Assembly: GCA_030266985.1 (NCBI GenBank)
Contig: JAJDJB010000009.1
Span: 1 to 48,036 of the forward strand
Source of the DNA: Synergistaceae bacterium OttesenSCG-928-D05
GTDB lineage: Bacteria > Synergistota > Synergistia > Synergistales > Synergistaceae
Direction of reading: 5' to 3'
DNA: 48,036 nucleotides
Every line of letters begins with the position of its first letter. Positions within the stretch are counted from its first letter, which is position 1. A program made the position numbers and the translations under genes. Under the pieces are notes generated by a model. It did no database searches and was not told the origin of the DNA. It saw only the letters and a program-made list of their open reading frames with translations. Positions 37,728 to 48,036 of this stretch are shown in pieces.

Positions 37728-38966
37728 ATGTACTCGAATGAAACATTTAGTGTATTTTCCGAGATTGGACACCTGAAACAGGTCATGCTTCACCGCCCCG
37801 GCGGAGAACTCGACAGACTCACGAACGAAAACAAGCACGAGCTCCTTTTTGACGAACTGATCTGGCTCGACCTTGCACAGCGCGAACATGACTCCTTCGC
37901 GTCCATACTGCGAAGTGTGGGAACCGAGGTACTTTACTTCCGCGACACGCTGGCGGCCGTCCTTGAGAATAAGGAAGTCCGCGTCCAGTTCGTAAAAGAC
38001 ACGCTCGCCCTCGAAGCGCTCGACCGACGCCTCTCGGAATGTATGACAGAATATTTTATGAGCCTCCCCGCACAAGAACTCGCGACACACTTCATCGAAG
38101 GCTACAGCCGCGACGAAGCGAAAGAAATCTGCAAAGCCTCCCTGAGCCTCGTATTTAAAGTCTCAAACGGCAGCGACTTCCTCATCCACCCGATGCCAAA
38201 CCTTTACTTCCAGAGAGACCCCGCGATCACGATCGGCAACGGCATCGTGCTCGGGCAAATGACCTATGAAGCGCGCAGACGCGAGCCGCTCTACTGGAGA
38301 TACATCACGACGCACCATCCCCGCTTCAAAGGCATGAAAATACTGTTCGGCAAAGCGCCCGACGAAGTCTGGCCGCAGCGCATCGAAGGCGGCGACGTGC
38401 TCGTCCTCAACGAACGCGCGATCGCGGTCGGCGTCAGTCAGCGCACCGCGCCGACGACAATCCAGAGGCTTGGACGCGAGCTTTCGAAAAATACGCAGAT
38501 CAAACGCATCCTCGCGTTCGAGATCCCGAACGCGCGCTACAGCATGCACCTCGACACCGTATTCACGATGCCGGACAAAGACAAATTCTCGATCTTCCCG
38601 CCCCTGAAAGACTCTCTCAAGGTGTGGCAGATGGACTACAACGACGACGGCACGCTGCGCCGCATCACGGAGCAGGAAAACTGGAGGCAGGCAATGGCGG
38701 ACACGCTCGGCGTAGAACGCGTCCACGTCATCGAAATGAAAGGTAAGGATGACGCCGAAACCTTCCGTGAACAGTGGACCGACGGATGCAACGCGCTGAC
38801 CGTGGCGCCCGGAAAAGTCGTCACCTACAACCGCAATACGCTCTCAAACAGACTCCTGCGCGACAACGGCATCGAAGTTCTCGAGCTGGACGGTTCGGAG
38901 CTCGGCAAGGGCAGGGGCGGCCCAAGATGCATGTCCATGCCGCTAAATCGCGCGCCTGTGGAGTAA
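37728..38966 (+). CDS. arcA: Arginine deiminase
   Basis: Arginine deiminase hydrolyses arginine to citrulline and ammonia, the first step of the fermentative ADI pathway. The protein of 412 residues has the family landmarks LHRPGGELDRL, FQRDPAITIG, the active-site His in MHLDTVFTMPD, and the nucleophilic Cys in GRGGPRCMSMPL near the C-terminus. GGAGGTG precedes the ATG. Together with arcB downstream it would yield citrulline, ornithine and carbamoyl phosphate; the ATP-forming carbamate kinase and the arginine/ornithine antiporter are not in this window. Confidence 0.97.
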   Translation: MYSNETFSVFSEIGHLKQVMLHRPGGELDRLTNENKHELLFDELIWLDLAQREHDSFASILRSVGTEVLYFRDTLAAVLENKEVRVQFVKDTLALEALDRRLSECMTEYFMSLPAQELATHFIEGYSRDEAKEICKASLSLVFKVSNGSDFLIHPMPNLYFQRDPAITIGNGIVLGQMTYEARRREPLYWRYITTHHPRFKGMKILFGKAPDEVWPQRIEGGDVLVLNERAIAVGVSQRTAPTTIQRLGRELSKNTQIKRILAFEIPNARYSMHLDTVFTMPDKDKFSIFPPLKDSLKVWQMDYNDDGTLRRITEQENWRQAMADTLGVERVHVIEMKGKDDAETFREQWTDGCNALTVAPGKVVTYNRNTLSNRLLRDNGIEVLELDGSELGKGRGGPRCMSMPLNRAPVE

Positions 38967-38984
38967 ATTTTACAAAAAAACCTA

Positions 38985-39013
38985 TTTACATTTGGTCTAT
39001 TTAGGTGTATATT
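38985..39013 (+). promoter_or_regulatory. Promoter upstream of arcB
   Basis: TTTACA at 38985-38990 and TATATT at 39008-39013 are exactly 17 bases apart, about 43 bases before arcB, so arcB can be expressed apart from arcA. Confidence 0.75.
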
Positions 39014-39056
39014 CCTGAACTATCAATCAGATAAAACATTCAGGAGGAACTACACC

Positions 39057-40010
39057 ATGGCTTTTAACCTTCGTAATCGTCACTTGCTGACACTGAAGCA
39101 CCACACCCCGCAGGAGATTGAGTACCTGCTCGACCTGTCGAGGGATCTAAAAAATAAAAAGCGCGACGGCATCAAGGGCAAACTGCTCGCGGGCAAAAAC
39201 GTCGCGCTTATTTTCGAAAAACCGTCCACGCGTACGCGCTGCGCATTCACCGTCGCGACAATCGACGAGGGCGGACACCCCGAATACCTGGGAACGAACG
39301 ACATCCAGCTCGGCCATAAAGAAGACGTGAAAGACACTGCGCGCGTCCTTGGCCGCATGTTCGACGGCATTGAATTCCGCGGATACAGCCAGCAGACGGT
39401 GGAAGACCTCGCAAAATACTCCGGCGTGCCCGTGTGGAACGGACTCACCGACGACTACCACCCGACGCAGATTCTGGCCGACCTGCTCACCGTACGCGAA
39501 AAACTCGGCCGCCTCAAAGGCGTCAAGTTCGTTTTCTGCGGCGACGGACGCAACAACATGGCGAACTCGCTCATGATCGGCTGCGCGAAAATGGGACTCC
39601 ACTTCGTTGTCGCGGCGCCGACATCGCTGCACACAGACCCTGAGATCGTTAAAGAGTGCTATCAGATCCTCGAAGACACGCAGTCCGGCGGCACAATAGA
39701 AATAACCGACGACGTGCAAAAGGCCGTCAAAGACGCGGACGTCATCTACACGGACGTCTGGGCGTCGATGGGGGAGGAAGACAAGCTCGCCGAGCGCAAA
39801 AAAATATTGCAGCCCTACCAGGTGAACATGGAACTGCTTAAAGCGACCGGCAACCCGAACGTCCTGTTCCTGCACTGCCTGCCGGCGGTCAAGGGGTACG
39901 AGGTGACGGAAGAAGTATTTGAATCCCACCATTCAAAGGTGTTTGATCAGGCGGAGAACCGTATGCCAACGATAAAGGCGACTATCGTTTCCTCAATCGG
40001 TAATCTGTAA
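39057..40010 (+). CDS. arcB: Ornithine carbamoyltransferase (probably catabolic)
   Basis: The 317-residue enzyme exchanges carbamoyl phosphate and ornithine with citrulline and phosphate. It shows the carbamoyl-phosphate site [12 protein letters not shown], the ornithine-side [11 protein letters not shown] and the HCLPA motif. Sequence alone does not separate anabolic ArgF from catabolic ArcB; the position behind arcA favours the latter. CAGGAGGA precedes the ATG, and a promoter-like pair lies 43 bases upstream. The stop codon is inside a small perfect inverted repeat (40007-40025). Confidence 0.95.
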
Positions 40011-40025: not shown

Positions 40026-40518
40026 GCGCGATAAACGTAACAACTCTCAAGAGCGGTCCGGAGGGAGCGGCAGCTGTAATGCCGCAGGCGCAGTTCTGCT
40101 TCTCTTTGCGCTGCTTCCTTATCCATGGAAGCAAAATAAACGGCACTAGCCGTTCATCAAAGCACATCCGGTAAAGTGCGCGGGGCTTTCGGTCTTTTTC
40201 CGAAAGCCCCGCGCACTGTTAAATCCACACAAACTCTCCATCTGAAATCTCACCGTTTACTCTCATTCCACACAAATTTCGACAAGCTCCAAACCCTCCC
40301 CAGCGCCGTTCTCATGGCAAGCAAAAAACATACATTAACCTTCAACCTTTCAAAATAAACATATTTTTATGCATTTCTAATATTAATGTTAAGAAAGTGT
40401 AATAACTTTTTAAACATTATCCTAATACGGATGTGTATTAAAAAACAAGACGATATGATTTATGCAGAAAGGCTGTATGGCTTTGTTTTCATGGATAAGT
40501 AAAAAGGAGGCAACGTGC
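40026..40518. other. Intergenic region with large palindrome, no gene seen
   Basis: About 490 bases separate arcB from the next gene. They contain the 18-base perfect inverted repeat at 40175-40217, then an AT-rich stretch (40330-40500) that probably holds the promoter of the next gene, for example TATGAT at 40454-40459 without a good -35 box. I see no credible coding region. Confidence 0.55.
40175..40217. repeat. Large perfect palindrome with GGGGCTTTCGG core
   Basis: An 18-base arm, AGTGCGCGGGGCTTTCGG at 40175-40192, pairs without mismatch with 40200-40217 around TCTTTTT. No T run follows on either strand, so it differs from the ordinary terminators in this window. Two related hairpins occur at 44885-44916 and 48008-48036. 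Confidence 0.85.
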
Positions 40519-41925
40519 ATGATAACCCTGCACAACGCTCGTACCGAAGAGTCGGTCTCGTTGAAAATTCGCCTTGAAATCGGCATATCGGAAGACAGGC
40601 GCCCGCGCTACTACACGGACACGCACCGGTGTTTCCGCAGCGATATGAGCGCCGAAGATTTTCTGCAGATTGCCGCCGCGTTCGAAAACATGTACGACGG
40701 CGTCATCGACAAAGTTTTCATAGACCGCCACACCTGCGAAATCCTCTACGAACGCAACCGACCGCCGGCAAAACATACCCGCGGAAGCGCGTACAAAGAC
40801 CCCGGCATCGCGGCGGCACGCACGTATTTAAAAGAGATCGAATCCGGGCGTTCCGATCCGGAGGCGCGCAAAGCGGCGGAAGCGGTACGCACCCGCGAAA
40901 AGGAGCGGCAGGCGGGGGAGCGGCACACGGACATGGGCGAAGACGTCACACTGGACAAGAGAAAACCGCTTTACCTGCAAATGAAGGAACTCGTGGACTA
41001 CCTTTCCCAGTTATACGCCAAAGCGGACGAGCATTTCCGTGAGCATCCGCAGGACGAAACGCTGACTTTCAAACTTCCCGACCTCGTAATCGCCGGGTAT
41101 GACACGTTCGCCCCCGCAATGCTCGTCAAGCAATTCAGGACGACCACGGTGCACATGAAACCGACAAGGGCACTCGCGACGGCACGGGATTACCTGTTGC
41201 ATCTGGTTTGCACGCTGCCCGTCCTGCGCGATGCGTTCGAGGGCAAGCCGGATACGCATATTATGGCTTTTCCGCTCGGTGAGATCACCATTAAAAAAGA
41301 GCACCACGACGCGCCGCACGGCGAAGCGGAAACGCACACCGGCGCGCCCGACGAAAACACGCCCGCAGAACAAATTGAAGCGCCAAGCGACACGGCGAAC
41401 CGAAACGAGCGCACGATGCACCGGCAGGAAACCCTCGGCGGGAAACTGCGCAAATGGTGGCTCTGCATAGACGACGAAACAAACGCCCCCGCCAGCGAAA
41501 CATGCGGCGGCGATGACGAGGACGCGCCGCCGATGACGCTCAAGGAATACATCCTGCGTTTCCCGACGCTCTATCAAAAAGCGCGCGGGTTCTTCGGCAA
41601 AACCCCCGCGCCAGGTGTGCGCATTTTTGAAATGCCCGCCGTGAAATTAACAAAAGCGGAAGCGCAGGCACAGATACACCGTGCCGAACTTACACAAATG
41701 CTCGGCAACCCGGATCCGGATGTCATCCGCGCGGTCAGCGAGAGCATTTCCGACCTCGCCGCATCCGCCCGCGACTTTTTCGCAAAGAACCCAAAAGAAG
41801 CATTCGCGCTCATTCCGCAGCCAAACATACGCCTATCCAACCCCAACCAGCAGACAGAACCCCTCATACACGGGTTCGATTCGCCACCTGAGCCGCACGC
41901 TCCGGATGAGAGACAGCGGGAATAG
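40519..41925 (+). CDS. Unrecognised 468-residue protein with four degenerate repeats
   Basis: The start is the ATG at 40519, preceded by AAGGAGG; the open frame extends 19 codons upstream without support. No signal peptide is seen, so it is probably cytoplasmic. Residues 13-78 weakly recall the small DUF1659 domain (LKIRLEIGISED, then AEDFLQIAAAFENM). A charged linker follows. Four degenerate units of about 37 residues are visible at 155-193, 222-260, 341-378 and 406-441: each has a helix with YL or LY, a bulky pair, a Pro a few residues later, and a short hydrophobic strand (for example FFGKTPAPGVRIFEMPAVKL and FFAKNPKEAFALIPQPNIRL). Acidic, Ala/Thr/Pro-rich spacers separate them. Function unknown; it lies just upstream of the surface-protein pair. 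Confidence 0.75.
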   Translation: MITLHNARTEESVSLKIRLEIGISEDRRPRYYTDTHRCFRSDMSAEDFLQIAAAFENMYDGVIDKVFIDRHTCEILYERNRPPAKHTRGSAYKDPGIAAARTYLKEIESGRSDPEARKAAEAVRTREKERQAGERHTDMGEDVTLDKRKPLYLQMKELVDYLSQLYAKADEHFREHPQDETLTFKLPDLVIAGYDTFAPAMLVKQFRTTTVHMKPTRALATARDYLLHLVCTLPVLRDAFEGKPDTHIMAFPLGEITIKKEHHDAPHGEAETHTGAPDENTPAEQIEAPSDTANRNERTMHRQETLGGKLRKWWLCIDDETNAPASETCGGDDEDAPPMTLKEYILRFPTLYQKARGFFGKTPAPGVRIFEMPAVKLTKAEAQAQIHRAELTQMLGNPDPDVIRAVSESISDLAASARDFFAKNPKEAFALIPQPNIRLSNPNQQTEPLIHGFDSPPEPHAPDERQRE

Positions 41926-42069: not shown

Positions 42070-44856
42070 ATGCAAACAAGACAATCCGGTAAATTTCTAC
42101 ACTTAAAATGGAAAGTTTTTATTTTCGCAATTTTTCTTTGCATTTTGATCACCAGCACACCGCTCTTTGCGGCGGAAACAATCGAACCTGAATCATGGGA
42201 TGAAATAACCCAGCCGTACACGCTCTCGGACGGCGACACGCTCGACTTAAGCGCCCTACCCGCAGAGGCGGGTGGGAAAATCGTTACGATCCCCGCAGAC
42301 GCCGATGTGACTGTGATCGGCAGTTCGGACGTTGCATACATAGGATTAAAGATCGAGCTTTTACAGAATGCGAGCCTCACGATCCAAAACCTGCGGATCG
42401 ACAATGATGTGCAGTCCGACGACTGGCATGCGGTGGACGTAAAAAAAACCGGCACAACACTTATCCTGGAAGGGTCGAACTACCTGCACGTCCATCGTAA
42501 CGCGGCATCCGTACACGCGCCGGAGGATACCGGCGTTACGATTACTTCCTTCACATCAGGTTCGCTCACTGCCTTTTCTGGAGACCCCGAAGGATCAATA
42601 TTCGGCGGCGCTGCAATCGGCGGCGCGGTGAATGAACATGCGGGGGGAATCATAATCTCAGGAAACGCGGTGGTGACTGCTTCTGCTGCAATGGACGGCG
42701 CAGGGATCGGCAGCGGCGCCCTGGCATCTCCGGGACCTCACGCCGGAACAATTACGATCTCTGACAATGCCACGGTGACAGCTACGTCATATACTGGCGC
42801 GGGAATCGGAGGGGCAAGCAATACCATGGGCAGCCGGGGAAGCACTGTGATAATCACAGGCGGCGCGGTATATGCGCGCTCCGTGATCGCCTATGACATC
42901 GGTCCAGGATTAGCATCAACGAATCAGTTTCCAGCTACAACTACAATCACTGGCGGCTCCGTCAATGCGCGCAAAGATAAAGTCTATGGCACGCCAAAAA
43001 ACGCTGCTGGCGCAACCCTGACACCGACAGCCATAGATTTCGCCGGCGGTCTCGCGGGCCAGACGCTCGTCTTTATGGTCGAGCCGACTGACGGCGACCC
43101 GTACGAATACACCTTCCTCGTTCCATCGGACGACGTAGCGTACCTCTGGCTACCGGCGGGCGTTGTTCCCCCGGCGGGCTTCGGCACTGCCACGCTGTCC
43201 GTGGACGTCGTATCCCTCGCGCGAAACACGCCAGCCATACAGTTGACGGCAACCGCGGGAGACAGTACGTTGCTCGTTCGCTGGGAACGGATCGACGAAA
43301 CTGAGGCCGTCCTTGAGCACGGTGAGATTTTGCCCGGCGAGGTGACCACTGTTGAAGGAATACAGCCTGGCACGCACCTCTTTCGCGTAAAGGCGCTCTG
43401 GGAAGCCTACGGTACCTCTGCGGACGCCTATTCGAACACAGTCGCCATCACAGTATCCGACGTAACGGCGGACGATATCGGCGTCACGGCTTACAATCTT
43501 CCCAATCCGATCCGCGCGGGTGACAGCGCCGAGATTACCTATACCTTTACAAGCGACACATATCCCGTCACCCTGGTCGGCAGCGCTGACACAACAGATC
43601 TGCCCGCCAGCAACTTTGGATTTAAAATCAGCGGCGACACAGAAGCTGTACTCTCGACGGATTCGGCGGGAGCGCAGGGAAGCTATTCCGTCAGCGTCGA
43701 TGTAATCGCGGACGGCTTGTGGGTCGGCCCCATAGGCATGACGTTCAAAATCGAACGCGCAGCGAACTCGGACGACGTGAAACTCGAGAGTTCCGGCGTA
43801 CCCGTATCGAAAATCTTTACGGGCCTTAGCGTTGACGCGGTCTACACGGCCATAAAAACCGCCGGCGATCTCTCTGAACTCGAAGCAAGCATTGGCAACG
43901 TCACGGCATCCGATAACTGGGATGAAAGCGCCTTCGAGTACAATCTCGTGAGCCCGGACACATTGACGGTAACCGGCACTGCGCAGGAACCCGGAGTCTA
44001 CGCGCTCTCCGTCCCGCTGAAACTCGGCGAATACAACATCAGGACAGAATCCGTTACTTATACCGTATACGCGGACGCGGACGACATTACCGTATCGTCG
44101 GACAGCGACGCGGAGGACATCCTGCGCGGCGATAACGTGGACATTGAGTTCTCCTTTGCGCTTGAGGAATTCCCCGACGCGGAGGTCGAAATCGTCGACG
44201 TGAAAGGCGCTGAGGGCTGGGAGGAAAGCGGGCTCATAATCGTACCGGGCGAAGACGGTAAAACATTCAAAATAATCAACGAAGCGAACATACCCGGCGA
44301 ATACGAGATCAGCGTGCTTATCGATATCAACGGCGCGGTCACGGAAATCACAATCCCTGTCGTCATCGCGGCGCAGGCGAAAGACATCACCGTGATACAA
44401 AAATCGGGCAAAATCGACATCGACAACATCACGGAAGGCGACGAAGTGGACGTCACATACGGCTTCGTCTCCAGCATCCCGAACGCAACCATAATCGTCC
44501 TTGATGCGAAAAGCGCAGGCGACAGAAATCTGAAGAAGCTCAATGACGCCGCAATCCCGGACGTCATCACAGACTGGGAAGAGAGCGGGCTCGACTTCAC
44601 CGTAAACCAGGACGGTACCATCCGCGTGGTAGGCACCGCAAAAACACCGGGGGATTACGCGATCGACGTGAACCTCACGTTGAACGACGTGCCCGTGGAA
44701 GACGTGAAGATCAACATCTCCATCCTCGCCAAAGAAACACCGCCGCCGCCAGGCTGTAAGAGCAGCAGCAGCGGCTGCAGCGCGGTGAACGCAGGCCTGT
44801 ATCTCATGGCACTGCTTCCCGTTATCTATATAAAGAAGCGAAACGGACAGCGATAA
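42070..44856 (+). CDS. Synergist-CTERM surface protein A with beta-helix-like and Ig-like repeats
   Basis: The 928-residue protein has an N-terminal signal peptide (helix around residues 15-33, LFA-A cleavage near 34), a region of TI-N-type strands, then about four glycine-rich rungs such as GAAIGG, GAGIGSG, GAGIGG and DIGPG alternating with TISxNAxVTA-like strands, suggesting a right-handed beta-helix or carbohydrate-binding fold. Next come four Ig-like units, each opening with a DDI-V or similar motif and ending in a VSV-I strand (from about residue 465 to 895). The C-terminus has a Pro-rich spacer, GCKSSSSGCSA, one hydrophobic helix (LYLMALLPVIYI) and KKRNGQR, matching the Synergist-CTERM sorting signal. 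AAGGAGG precedes the ATG. It is a tandem paralog of the next gene. Likely an anchored surface or secreted adhesin; ligand unknown. Confidence 0.85.
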   Translation: MQTRQSGKFLHLKWKVFIFAIFLCILITSTPLFAAETIEPESWDEITQPYTLSDGDTLDLSALPAEAGGKIVTIPADADVTVIGSSDVAYIGLKIELLQNASLTIQNLRIDNDVQSDDWHAVDVKKTGTTLILEGSNYLHVHRNAASVHAPEDTGVTITSFTSGSLTAFSGDPEGSIFGGAAIGGAVNEHAGGIIISGNAVVTASAAMDGAGIGSGALASPGPHAGTITISDNATVTATSYTGAGIGGASNTMGSRGSTVIITGGAVYARSVIAYDIGPGLASTNQFPATTTITGGSVNARKDKVYGTPKNAAGATLTPTAIDFAGGLAGQTLVFMVEPTDGDPYEYTFLVPSDDVAYLWLPAGVVPPAGFGTATLSVDVVSLARNTPAIQLTATAGDSTLLVRWERIDETEAVLEHGEILPGEVTTVEGIQPGTHLFRVKALWEAYGTSADAYSNTVAITVSDVTADDIGVTAYNLPNPIRAGDSAEITYTFTSDTYPVTLVGSADTTDLPASNFGFKISGDTEAVLSTDSAGAQGSYSVSVDVIADGLWVGPIGMTFKIERAANSDDVKLESSGVPVSKIFTGLSVDAVYTAIKTAGDLSELEASIGNVTASDNWDESAFEYNLVSPDTLTVTGTAQEPGVYALSVPLKLGEYNIRTESVTYTVYADADDITVSSDSDAEDILRGDNVDIEFSFALEEFPDAEVEIVDVKGAEGWEESGLIIVPGEDGKTFKIINEANIPGEYEISVLIDINGAVTEITIPVVIAAQAKDITVIQKSGKIDIDNITEGDEVDVTYGFVSSIPNATIIVLDAKSAGDRNLKKLNDAAIPDVITDWEESGLDFTVNQDGTIRVVGTAKTPGDYAIDVNLTLNDVPVEDVKINISILAKETPPPPGCKSSSSGCSAVNAGLYLMALLPVIYIKKRNGQR

Positions 44857-44884
44857 CCGTTAGCCTCAAACCATACGACAAAAC

Positions 44885-44916
44885 GCCGGGTTTTCCGTTC
44901 CTTTCGAAAGCCCGGC
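44885..44916. repeat. Hairpin between the tandem surface-protein genes
   Basis: GCCGGGTTTTC at 44885-44895 pairs with GAAAGCCCGGC at 44906-44916 with one G-T pair. The core resembles the palindromes at 40175 and 48008. No T run follows. Confidence 0.7.
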
Positions 44917-44933
44917 AAACATAAAAAAACAAA

Positions 44934-44954
44934 CAACTTCTGCAAAGGAAGTTG
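44934..44954 (+). repeat. Hairpin just before the ribosome-binding site of surface protein B
   Basis: CAACTTC at 44934-44940 pairs with GAAGTTG at 44948-44954. It ends two or three bases before the GAGGGGG ribosome-binding site, so it could affect translation. Confidence 0.5.
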
Positions 44955-44971
44955 AAGAGGGGGAAACAGAA

Positions 44972-47971
44972 ATGCGAACAAAACAACACGGTAAGTTTTC
45001 ACACTTAAAATGGAAGGTCTTATTCTTCACGATTAGTCTTTCCTTTTTAATAACCGGCACGCCGCTCTTTGCGGCGGATCCGATCGTACCCGAAACATGG
45101 GATGAAATCACCAAGCCGTACACGCTTGCGGACGGCGACACGCTCGATCTGCGCGGCTTGCCTGCGGAGGCGGGCACTAAAACCATTGTCATCCCCGAAA
45201 GCACAAAAGTAAAAGTAATCGGCAACCCCAGTGTCTCTTACAAAGATTTGAAGTTCCAACTCGCACGAAGCGCGGACTTCACGATTCAAAACCTGAAAAT
45301 CGACAACAGAACCGCCGCTTATGCCGTCACATATGCGATCGAGGTACAGGGTCCGGACACGACTCTCATTCTCGAAGGCTCAAACGACATGCAGTGTCGT
45401 GATACTGCCGCCGTCTTCGTACCGGCGGAAACCGACATTGAGATCACATCCAGTGCAGGGGGATTGCTCACAGCGACCGGAAACAATGCTGCCGCCATCG
45501 GCTCAAGAATCTATGGAACCACCGGATCAATCACTATTTCGGGCAACGCGGAAGTGACCGTTTACACGTCCAAAACCCAATCCGGCGCGGGCATTGGCGG
45601 CGGATATGACAGCTCAGGCGGCGATGTAACGATTACGGACAACGCGATTGTTACCGCATTTGCATTCGGAAAACGCGGCGCGGCAATCGGCGGCGGAGGG
45701 GCGAAACCAAGCGGTTCGGGTGGCGATGGCGGCACGCTCACAATCTCCGGCAACGCAAAAGTGACCGCAATTGCGACAGACGGCGGAACAGCCATCGGCG
45801 GCGGAATCGGCAGCAGCAGCACGGGCCAAACGGGCGGCGCGGGTGCCAATATAACAATCACGGACAATGCGACATTAATTGTCTCCGCGGACACCGGCAC
45901 CGCAATCGGCGGCGGACCGGCCGGCGGGCCGGCCGGCAATGGCGGCGATGGCGGATCCGTCGTCATCACAGGCGGCGCTGTGTACGTTCATGCCGACGGC
46001 GCGGGATATGGCATCGGCCCCGGTCTTGGCGGCAGCGAAGGCGAGGATGGCGGCGACGCGATCGTCACCATCACAGGCGGTTCCGTCAACATTGAGAAAG
46101 AAAAAGTCAAAGCGGCGCCCGTCAACGACGCAAACACAGAACTCTTCCTGACAATCAAACAATATCCCAACCTTGCGGGCAGGACGCTTGGCTTCACCGT
46201 CAATCCGGCTGTCGGCGAACCATACTCATACAACTTCCTCGTTCCCTCAGACGACCTTGCGTATCTCTGGCTGCCGGAAGGCTTCACACCTCCACCGCTA
46301 GGCGGGTCCGTTTCGCTCTCCGCAGGGGAAGTGGTATCCGTCGCACGCAACACACCCGGCGTGCATCTCACCGCCACCCCCGGCGACAACACCACGCTTG
46401 TTTGCTGGCAACGGATCGACGAAGATGAAAACGTCCTGGATTACGACGACATCGTACCCGGCGGGATGACGCTTACAGGCATACCCTTCGGCACAAACCT
46501 GTACAGGGTCAAGGCGGTATGGGAGGCCTTCGGACTGCCGCGGGAAGACGTCTACTCAAACACCGTCGCCGTCGAAGTACCCGACGTAACGACGGGGGAC
46601 ATCCACGTCACCGCGGACGACCTTCCCACAACAATGCGCGCAGGCGACAGCCAAAAAATCACCTATACATTTGCGAGCAATAAAGCCACGCACAGCGTTA
46701 CAAGGGTAGGCAGCGAGGACGCGCGCGGCATGGAAAACAGCGGCTTCAACATTACCATCAGCGGAGATACGCAGGCCATCCTCACCGCGGAATCCGCAGC
46801 GGAAGGAAGCTATTCCGCCGAATTCGACGTCATTGCGGGCGGCATGTGGCTCGGGCCCATCGGCATTTCGCTTGATGTAAAACGAGCCGCGGACTCCGAC
46901 GACGTGGAACTCGTGGCAACAGGCGCACCCATAACCAGCCTCAGCACAGGCATCAGTGTAGACGCGCACTACACCGCGCAGAAAAAAGCCGATGACCTGC
47001 CCGAACTCGACGCGGGCATCAGTGCGGTCCGAGCCTCCAACAACTGGGAAGAAAGCGGCTTCGACTACAAAACCACAGTTCCGGACACCCTCACCGTCAC
47101 AGGAACGGCAAAGACGCCCGGGGTCTATGGCCTCTCTGTCGACCTGAAACTCGGCGATTACGAAATAGCCACAGAATCCATCTCCTACACCGTATACGCG
47201 AATCCCGAAGACATCACCGTCACACCGGACGGTGACACAGAAGACATCGAACGCGGAGACATCGTAGACATCGAATACTCCTTCGCGCTCGACGGATTCC
47301 CCGACGCGGTCATCGAAATCATCGGCGTGAAAACCTCCGACGGCTGGGAACAAAGCGGCCTGTTGGCAACACCCGACGATAACGACGAAACCCTCGGCGT
47401 CATCGGCGAAGCAAATGCACCGGGCGAATACGAAATCACCGTACAAATCACAATCAACGACGTGCCTGCGGCAATCACGATCCCCGTCGTCATCGCGGCG
47501 AAACCGGAAGACGTCATTGTAATACCGAAAGAAGGCAGAATCCTCATCGACAAATTCACGGAAGGCGACGAAGCGAACGCCACCTACGGCTTCGACTCCG
47601 ACATCCCCGACGCCGACATAACGCTCATCGACGCAGAAGGCGCGGACGGCTGGAACCTGAGCGGACTTGAAATCGCCTTAGGCCCGGAGGACTCGATCCG
47701 CGTGACCGGCATCGCAAAAACACCGGGGAACTATGCCCTCGACGTGCAGCTCACCATGAACAACGTGCCCGTGGAAGACGTACAGGTTCACCTCTCCATT
47801 GTTGCAAAAGAAGTGCCCGAAGAAGATGACGAAGATGGCGAGGAAGAGGACGACAAGAAAAAAGGCGGCGGGAACGGAAACAGCGGCTGCAATGCGGCAA
47901 GCGCGGGAAGAGCAGGATTACTAGCCTTCGCGTTGCTTCCCTTCGTATATAGAAAGAAACGCAGCAAATAA
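44972..47971 (+). CDS. Synergist-CTERM surface protein B, tandem paralog of A
   Basis: The 999-residue protein aligns with protein A over its whole length, including nearly the same signal peptide (HLKWKVLFF, LFA-AD cleavage) and domain order. Its glycine-rich region is longer, with about six rungs (AIGS, GIGGG, AIGGGG, AIGGG, AIGGG, GIGPG) spaced by about 30-35 residues, against about four in A. Four Ig-like units follow. The C-terminal spacer is a striking acidic-then-basic stretch (EEDDEDGEEEDDKKKGG), followed by NSGCNAASAGRAG, a hydrophobic helix (LLAFALLPFVYR) and KKRSK, again the Synergist-CTERM layout. The last Ig-like unit lacks an insertion found in A. The start ATG follows GAGGGGG. 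Probably an anchored surface protein that arose by duplication. Confidence 0.87.
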   Translation: MRTKQHGKFSHLKWKVLFFTISLSFLITGTPLFAADPIVPETWDEITKPYTLADGDTLDLRGLPAEAGTKTIVIPESTKVKVIGNPSVSYKDLKFQLARSADFTIQNLKIDNRTAAYAVTYAIEVQGPDTTLILEGSNDMQCRDTAAVFVPAETDIEITSSAGGLLTATGNNAAAIGSRIYGTTGSITISGNAEVTVYTSKTQSGAGIGGGYDSSGGDVTITDNAIVTAFAFGKRGAAIGGGGAKPSGSGGDGGTLTISGNAKVTAIATDGGTAIGGGIGSSSTGQTGGAGANITITDNATLIVSADTGTAIGGGPAGGPAGNGGDGGSVVITGGAVYVHADGAGYGIGPGLGGSEGEDGGDAIVTITGGSVNIEKEKVKAAPVNDANTELFLTIKQYPNLAGRTLGFTVNPAVGEPYSYNFLVPSDDLAYLWLPEGFTPPPLGGSVSLSAGEVVSVARNTPGVHLTATPGDNTTLVCWQRIDEDENVLDYDDIVPGGMTLTGIPFGTNLYRVKAVWEAFGLPREDVYSNTVAVEVPDVTTGDIHVTADDLPTTMRAGDSQKITYTFASNKATHSVTRVGSEDARGMENSGFNITISGDTQAILTAESAAEGSYSAEFDVIAGGMWLGPIGISLDVKRAADSDDVELVATGAPITSLSTGISVDAHYTAQKKADDLPELDAGISAVRASNNWEESGFDYKTTVPDTLTVTGTAKTPGVYGLSVDLKLGDYEIATESISYTVYANPEDITVTPDGDTEDIERGDIVDIEYSFALDGFPDAVIEIIGVKTSDGWEQSGLLATPDDNDETLGVIGEANAPGEYEITVQITINDVPAAITIPVVIAAKPEDVIVIPKEGRILIDKFTEGDEANATYGFDSDIPDADITLIDAEGADGWNLSGLEIALGPEDSIRVTGIAKTPGNYALDVQLTMNNVPVEDVQVHLSIVAKEVPEEDDEDGEEEDDKKKGGGNGNSGCNAASAGRAGLLAFALLPFVYRKKRSK

Positions 47972-48007: not shown

Positions 48008-48036
48008 CGGGGCTTTCGGAAAAACCGAAAACCCCG
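48008..48036. repeat. Hairpin after surface protein B, cut by the window end
   Basis: CGGGGCTTTCGG at 48008-48019 pairs with CCGAAAACCCCG at 48025-48036 around AAAAA with one mismatch. The window stops at the last base, so a T run for termination may lie beyond it. Confidence 0.75.

Follow-up and report, generated by a model that had tools for sequence, protein, structure and literature searches.

Old paralogous, probable Synerg-CTERM surface proteins that differ by whole rungs of a predicted β-helix in a Synergistaceae bacterium

Two adjacent genes near the right end of a 48,036-nucleotide stretch of the Synergistaceae bacterium OttesenSCG-928-D05 genome (the window) probably encode lipid-anchored, adhesin-like surface proteins that are processed by the protease MrtS and in which a stalk of Ig-like units carries a β-helix that binds a ligand, perhaps a glycan. 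The two proteins, designated A and B, differ by whole rungs of the putative helix. Judged from the sequences, this difference is old and lies within a larger gene family, with no sign of expansion under way. Taken alone, the window holds an ordinary pair of surface-protein paralogues, with the following features.

42070..44856, + strand: gene A (928 aa), with signal peptide, putative β-helix (4 loop rungs), cap, FN3-like unit, four Ig-like units and Synerg-CTERM
42070..42174, + strand: signal peptide of A, hydrophobic core VFIFAIFLCILITS, end ..LFAA
42541..42981, + strand: rung region of A, with N rung, two middle rungs (ISGN / ISDN), IGPG rung and last strand TITGGSVN
42982..43224, + strand: conserved cap domain of A (F.VPSDD.AYLWLP), 3' of the helix, common to the C24 gene array and the relatives in genome G086 (both described below)
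43459..44739, + strand: stalk of A, four Ig-like units
44746..44853, + strand: Synerg-CTERM of A, with Cys motif, hydrophobic stretch and basic end
44885..44916, + strand: hairpin between A and B with a stem of 11 bp and no U tract on the + strand (spacer z -4.8)
44972..47971, + strand: gene B (999 aa), plan as in A, putative β-helix with 6 loop rungs
44972..45076, + strand: signal peptide of B, core VLFFTISLSFLITG, end ..LFAA
45440..46105, + strand: rung region of B, with N rung, four middle rungs, IGPG rung and last strand TITGGSVN; β-strand periodicity in the model
46106..46339, + strand: cap domain of B
46583..47815, + strand: stalk of B, four Ig-like units; β-sandwich model, mean pLDDT 76, best PDB match the Ig domains of PrgB
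47849..47968, + strand: Synerg-CTERM-like tail of B, with Cys motif, hydrophobic stretch and basic end; under the TIGR04564 cut-off
48008..48036, + strand: terminal hairpin of the contig, 3' of B (z -5.4)

An open reading frame check showed that A and B are both intact and lie head to tail near the right end of the window, and the two proteins align end to end with 48% identity (786 bits), which bears out the original prediction of two full-length paralogs. Their signal peptides and Ig-like units match, as noted earlier, and the shared plan extends to the N-terminal start of the β-helix between the signal peptide and the glycine-rich rungs. Because B stops 65 bases from the end of the window, a further copy may lie beyond it. 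No Pfam family passed its cut-off with A or B, and none was reported by Pfam for the cap domain. Elsewhere in the window, a gene close to the left contig end (685-1791) encodes a Mutator-family transposase, and two genes (37728-40010) resemble arginine deiminase and ornithine carbamoyltransferase by translation alone. The A/B locus is flanked by a gene for a DUF1659-like protein (40462-41925; 16.3 bits, below the cut-off), which showed no significant similarity to the rest of the genome.

Motif counts gave exactly four loop motifs of the GAGIGGG type (closing Y-D/G-IGPG) in A and six in B, where about four and six rungs had been estimated, and strand repeats number five in A and seven in B. 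The proteins differ by whole rungs within the helix, which has two middle rungs in A and four in B between a constant first rung and two constant last strands (..GGAVY..IGPG.. and TITGGSVN). A third full-length paralogue, C, lies elsewhere in the same genome (C42:47229-50258); it and the gene array on contig C24 were missed in the first reading. C has six loop rungs and is also flanked by a gene for a DUF1659-like protein (L002:3-767; 26.8 bits, above the cut-off). Loop rungs in A, B and C therefore number 4, 6 and 6, and the stalk is fixed at four Ig units. In the middle rungs of these proteins (window 42649-45958), Gly and Asp strictly alternate after I(T)I(S/T). A two-rung duplication unit was considered and rejected: Gly/Asp parity stood at 2 of 252 labelings, but at 90 of 252 once that column was masked, and the test was chosen after the pattern had been seen and depends on one strand position.

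Both proteins end in a tripartite tail, which reads ..SSGCSAV..LYLMALLPVIYIKKRNGQR in A and ..SGCNAAS..LLAFALLPFVYRKKRSK in B. Against the Synerg-CTERM model TIGR04564 (cut-off 22.5 bits), A scored 18 bits in the protein scan and 23.5 bits in the whole-genome scan, B scored 17.2 and 14.6 bits, and C scored 27.2 and 32.2 bits. The match between the tails of A and B that was noted earlier holds for the Cys motif, the hydrophobic stretch and the basic end; by model score, A passes in the whole-genome scan only and B in neither scan. We treated the tail of B as a Synerg-CTERM signal because these three elements are kept. A Cys precedes the hydrophobic stretch in A, B and C, in the seven intact members of the gene array and in all three of the distant relatives E1-E3. 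The host genome holds 17 Synerg-CTERM matches over the cut-off, and its sole CPBP-family protease is MrtS (L073:1468-2007; 228 bits with NF040589, cut-off 130), the predicted Synerg-CTERM sorting enzyme, which was found over the cut-off in 126 of 188 Synergistota genomes. One secretin, of type II secretion or a pilus, is also encoded. A literature search on MrtS found no experimental paper.

The host genome assembly comprises 1.77 Mb and is 67% complete. Located on contig C24 (L034:2221-17613, minus strand) is an array of smaller relatives, of which seven are intact and one is frame-broken. Each array member has three loop rungs, an A/B-type cap and a strong Synerg-CTERM tail, and the stalks consist of one to three Ig/FN3-like units. 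The match between A and array member D1 (E about 1e-14) spans the rungs and the cap. Helix length varies among A, B and C on a constant stalk, whereas in the array the stalk varies and the helix is constant. A gene for a PgfS/ArnC-like glycosyltransferase (L034 4182-5168) lies between the last intact array copy and the broken one.

The model of the Ig region (mean pLDDT 76) matched the Ig-like adhesins PrgB and FdeC, and the S-layer protein SbsC was also among the matches. A fold match of this kind, made with a predicted structure, leaves the function of A and B unfixed; the adhesin label is suggested by their architecture as read from sequence. Another reading is that helix and Ig units build a structural envelope, or an S-layer or biofilm-matrix coat, in which rung number would be near-neutral length drift. 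The match to SbsC is consistent with such a coat, as are the number of paralogues per genome (about ten, from two subfamilies) and the free variation of middle rungs between constant ends. However, three paralogues with equal stalks and differing helices fit one lattice protein less well, and Pfam reported no S-layer homology domain in A or B. We consider a structural coat unlikely.

A search of 52 further genomes from the same family found no full-length protein of the A/B/C type. A profile of the rungs and cap, run over 188 Synergistota genomes, detected clear relatives in one genome from another Synergistota family (G086, relatives E1-E3; E to 1.8e-20) and weak rung-like matches only outside it. 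Loop rungs number 5, 7 and 4 in these three proteins, and the end rungs are as in A and B; the middle rungs have about 81-89% DNA identity, and the longest exact words that they share run to 47, 36 and 40 bases. With the Beta_helix_3 model (PF18889, cut-off 27), A scored 15.7 bits and B gave no match, and the distant relatives E1 (29.2 bits) and E2 (40.4 bits) passed. Two contig scans with family alignments yielded no confirmed relative, and the A/B/C profile, run against PDB sequences, returned nothing meaningful. Downstream of E1 (L068:4164-6721) and on its strand lie genes for a FecR-domain protein and for an outer-membrane protein of the SlipAM type, which are lacking at E2 and E3. A SLAM-type exporter was rejected because the SlipAM (PF04575) gene adjoins E1 only and is absent near E2 and E3. 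SlipAM (PF04575) was not detected in the genome of the window, by a search that was silent in control genomes too.

The near-identical middle rungs of the G086 proteins, set between the same end rungs, point to whole-rung duplication in the group, and sequence comparison gives good evidence that rung number in this lineage changes by whole-rung duplication or loss. The middle rungs of A, B and C have about 63-78% DNA identity with a longest shared exact word of 17 bases, and Tandem Repeats Finder detected no rung-length array. Outside the rungs, flank identity is 0.57 for A-B, 0.55 for A-C and 0.56 for B-C. A recent tandem duplication from A to B was rejected because the A-B flanks are no closer than the other two pairs, and slippage or phase variation was rejected for want of a rung-length tandem DNA repeat. 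The equal distance of A, B and C in their flanks indicates that the A/B pair is old; together with the diverged rungs and the lack of a tandem DNA repeat, it argues for an ancient paralogous difference. Repeat expansion, proposed earlier as the source of rung number change, accordingly holds for the lineage, where the G086 rungs are so alike, but no ongoing expansion was seen in A and B.

The same data bear on a periscope-like variable adhesin locus, in which frequent rung changes among strains, by repeat recombination, would tune adhesion. All sampled lineages differ in rung number, and the exact words of 36-47 bases shared by the G086 middle rungs are enough for recombination. In A, B and C, by contrast, the shared word is at most 17 bases, no array of rung length was found by Tandem Repeats Finder, and C, like B, has six rungs; moreover, the Ig stalk is constant here at four units and the helix varies, whereas Periscope Proteins vary in the stalk. 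Such a locus is quite improbable, and the variable locus of the original prediction was not supported for this pair, given the divergence of the middle rungs, the missing array and the age of the pair. One tentative possibility is that head and stalk length evolve separately in a Synergistota-specific surface family, with A, B and C varying in rungs and the array subfamily in stalk; recent rung amplification in the relatives would then place the variation in length in the binding head itself, opposite to Periscope Proteins.

A model of the helix (B residues 35-537, from a two-sequence alignment) had a pLDDT of about 80-95 in its first 80 residues and periodic β-strands through the rungs, with low confidence at the glycine loops and the cap. 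Its PDB matches were mostly β-helix proteins (polysaccharide lyases, phage tailspikes and autotransporter passengers), the best at an E-value of 0.02 and none at or below 0.001. Structure prediction, suggested earlier for the β-helix-like region, thus agreed with it in strand periodicity and in the identity of the top matches, but every match was weak (E >= 0.02). A secreted lyase or epimerase that acts on polysaccharides through a β-helix catalytic domain is very improbable, since the best fold matches, the polysaccharide lyase RbmB, the pectate lyase Pel9A and AlgG, reach E-values of only 0.02-0.1, no enzyme family was found for A or B in Pfam or NCBIfam, and the rungs are short, Gly/Ala-rich and not conserved in number, unlike a catalytic groove.

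As MrtS-processed surface proteins, A and B would be exported by Sec, for which a signal peptide is seen, and the hydrophobic helix of the Synerg-CTERM would hold them in the inner membrane. MrtS, as an intramembrane protease, may then cut near the conserved Cys and so give rise to lipid-anchored proteins, by analogy with MYXO-CTERM and MrtX, and the anchored proteins would pass to the outer surface. In this putative surface location, the right-handed β-helix and cap could form the distal ligand-binding part, perhaps for glycans, with the Ig units as the stalk. Middle rungs would be gained or lost whole, by duplication, between constant end rungs, changing the length of the helix and its presumed binding surface. 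The rung event that separates A from B, either gain of a rung pair in B and C or its loss in A, would be old, leaving diverged paralogues in side-by-side use. The locus offers two probable MrtS clients with a clean modular plan, with about 16 more in the genome, and the family provides a natural β-helix length series (3, 4, 5, 6 and 7 loop rungs) suited to asking how rung number affects binding.

A and B resemble fibrillar adhesins and Periscope Proteins (PMC9210967, PMC8201768) in having a putative binding head on an Ig-like stalk and in differing in repeat number. Periscope Proteins vary in the stalk, among strains, and their repeats are nearly identical (PMC8201768); the variation seen in A and B instead separates paralogues and lies in the helix head, and A and B have diverged repeats and lack the long, highly identical tandem DNA repeats by which Periscope Proteins are recognized. 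The strand repeat of about 20 residues is shared with the Beta_helix_3 repeat proteins (PF18889), but A and B fall under the cut-off of that family, and E1 and E2 lie over it. The experimentally studied analogue of Synerg-CTERM/MrtS (TIGR04564, NF040589) is the MYXO-CTERM/MrtX system, where MrtX cleavage and surface anchoring depend on the Cys, and for which lipidation and type II secretion have been proposed (PMC11980579). The tail of B differs in scoring under the cut-off of the Synerg-CTERM model, and the action of MrtS on A and B is suggested by analogy; the likeness lies in tails with a Cys motif, a hydrophobic helix and a basic end, and in the corresponding CPBP protease that the genome encodes.
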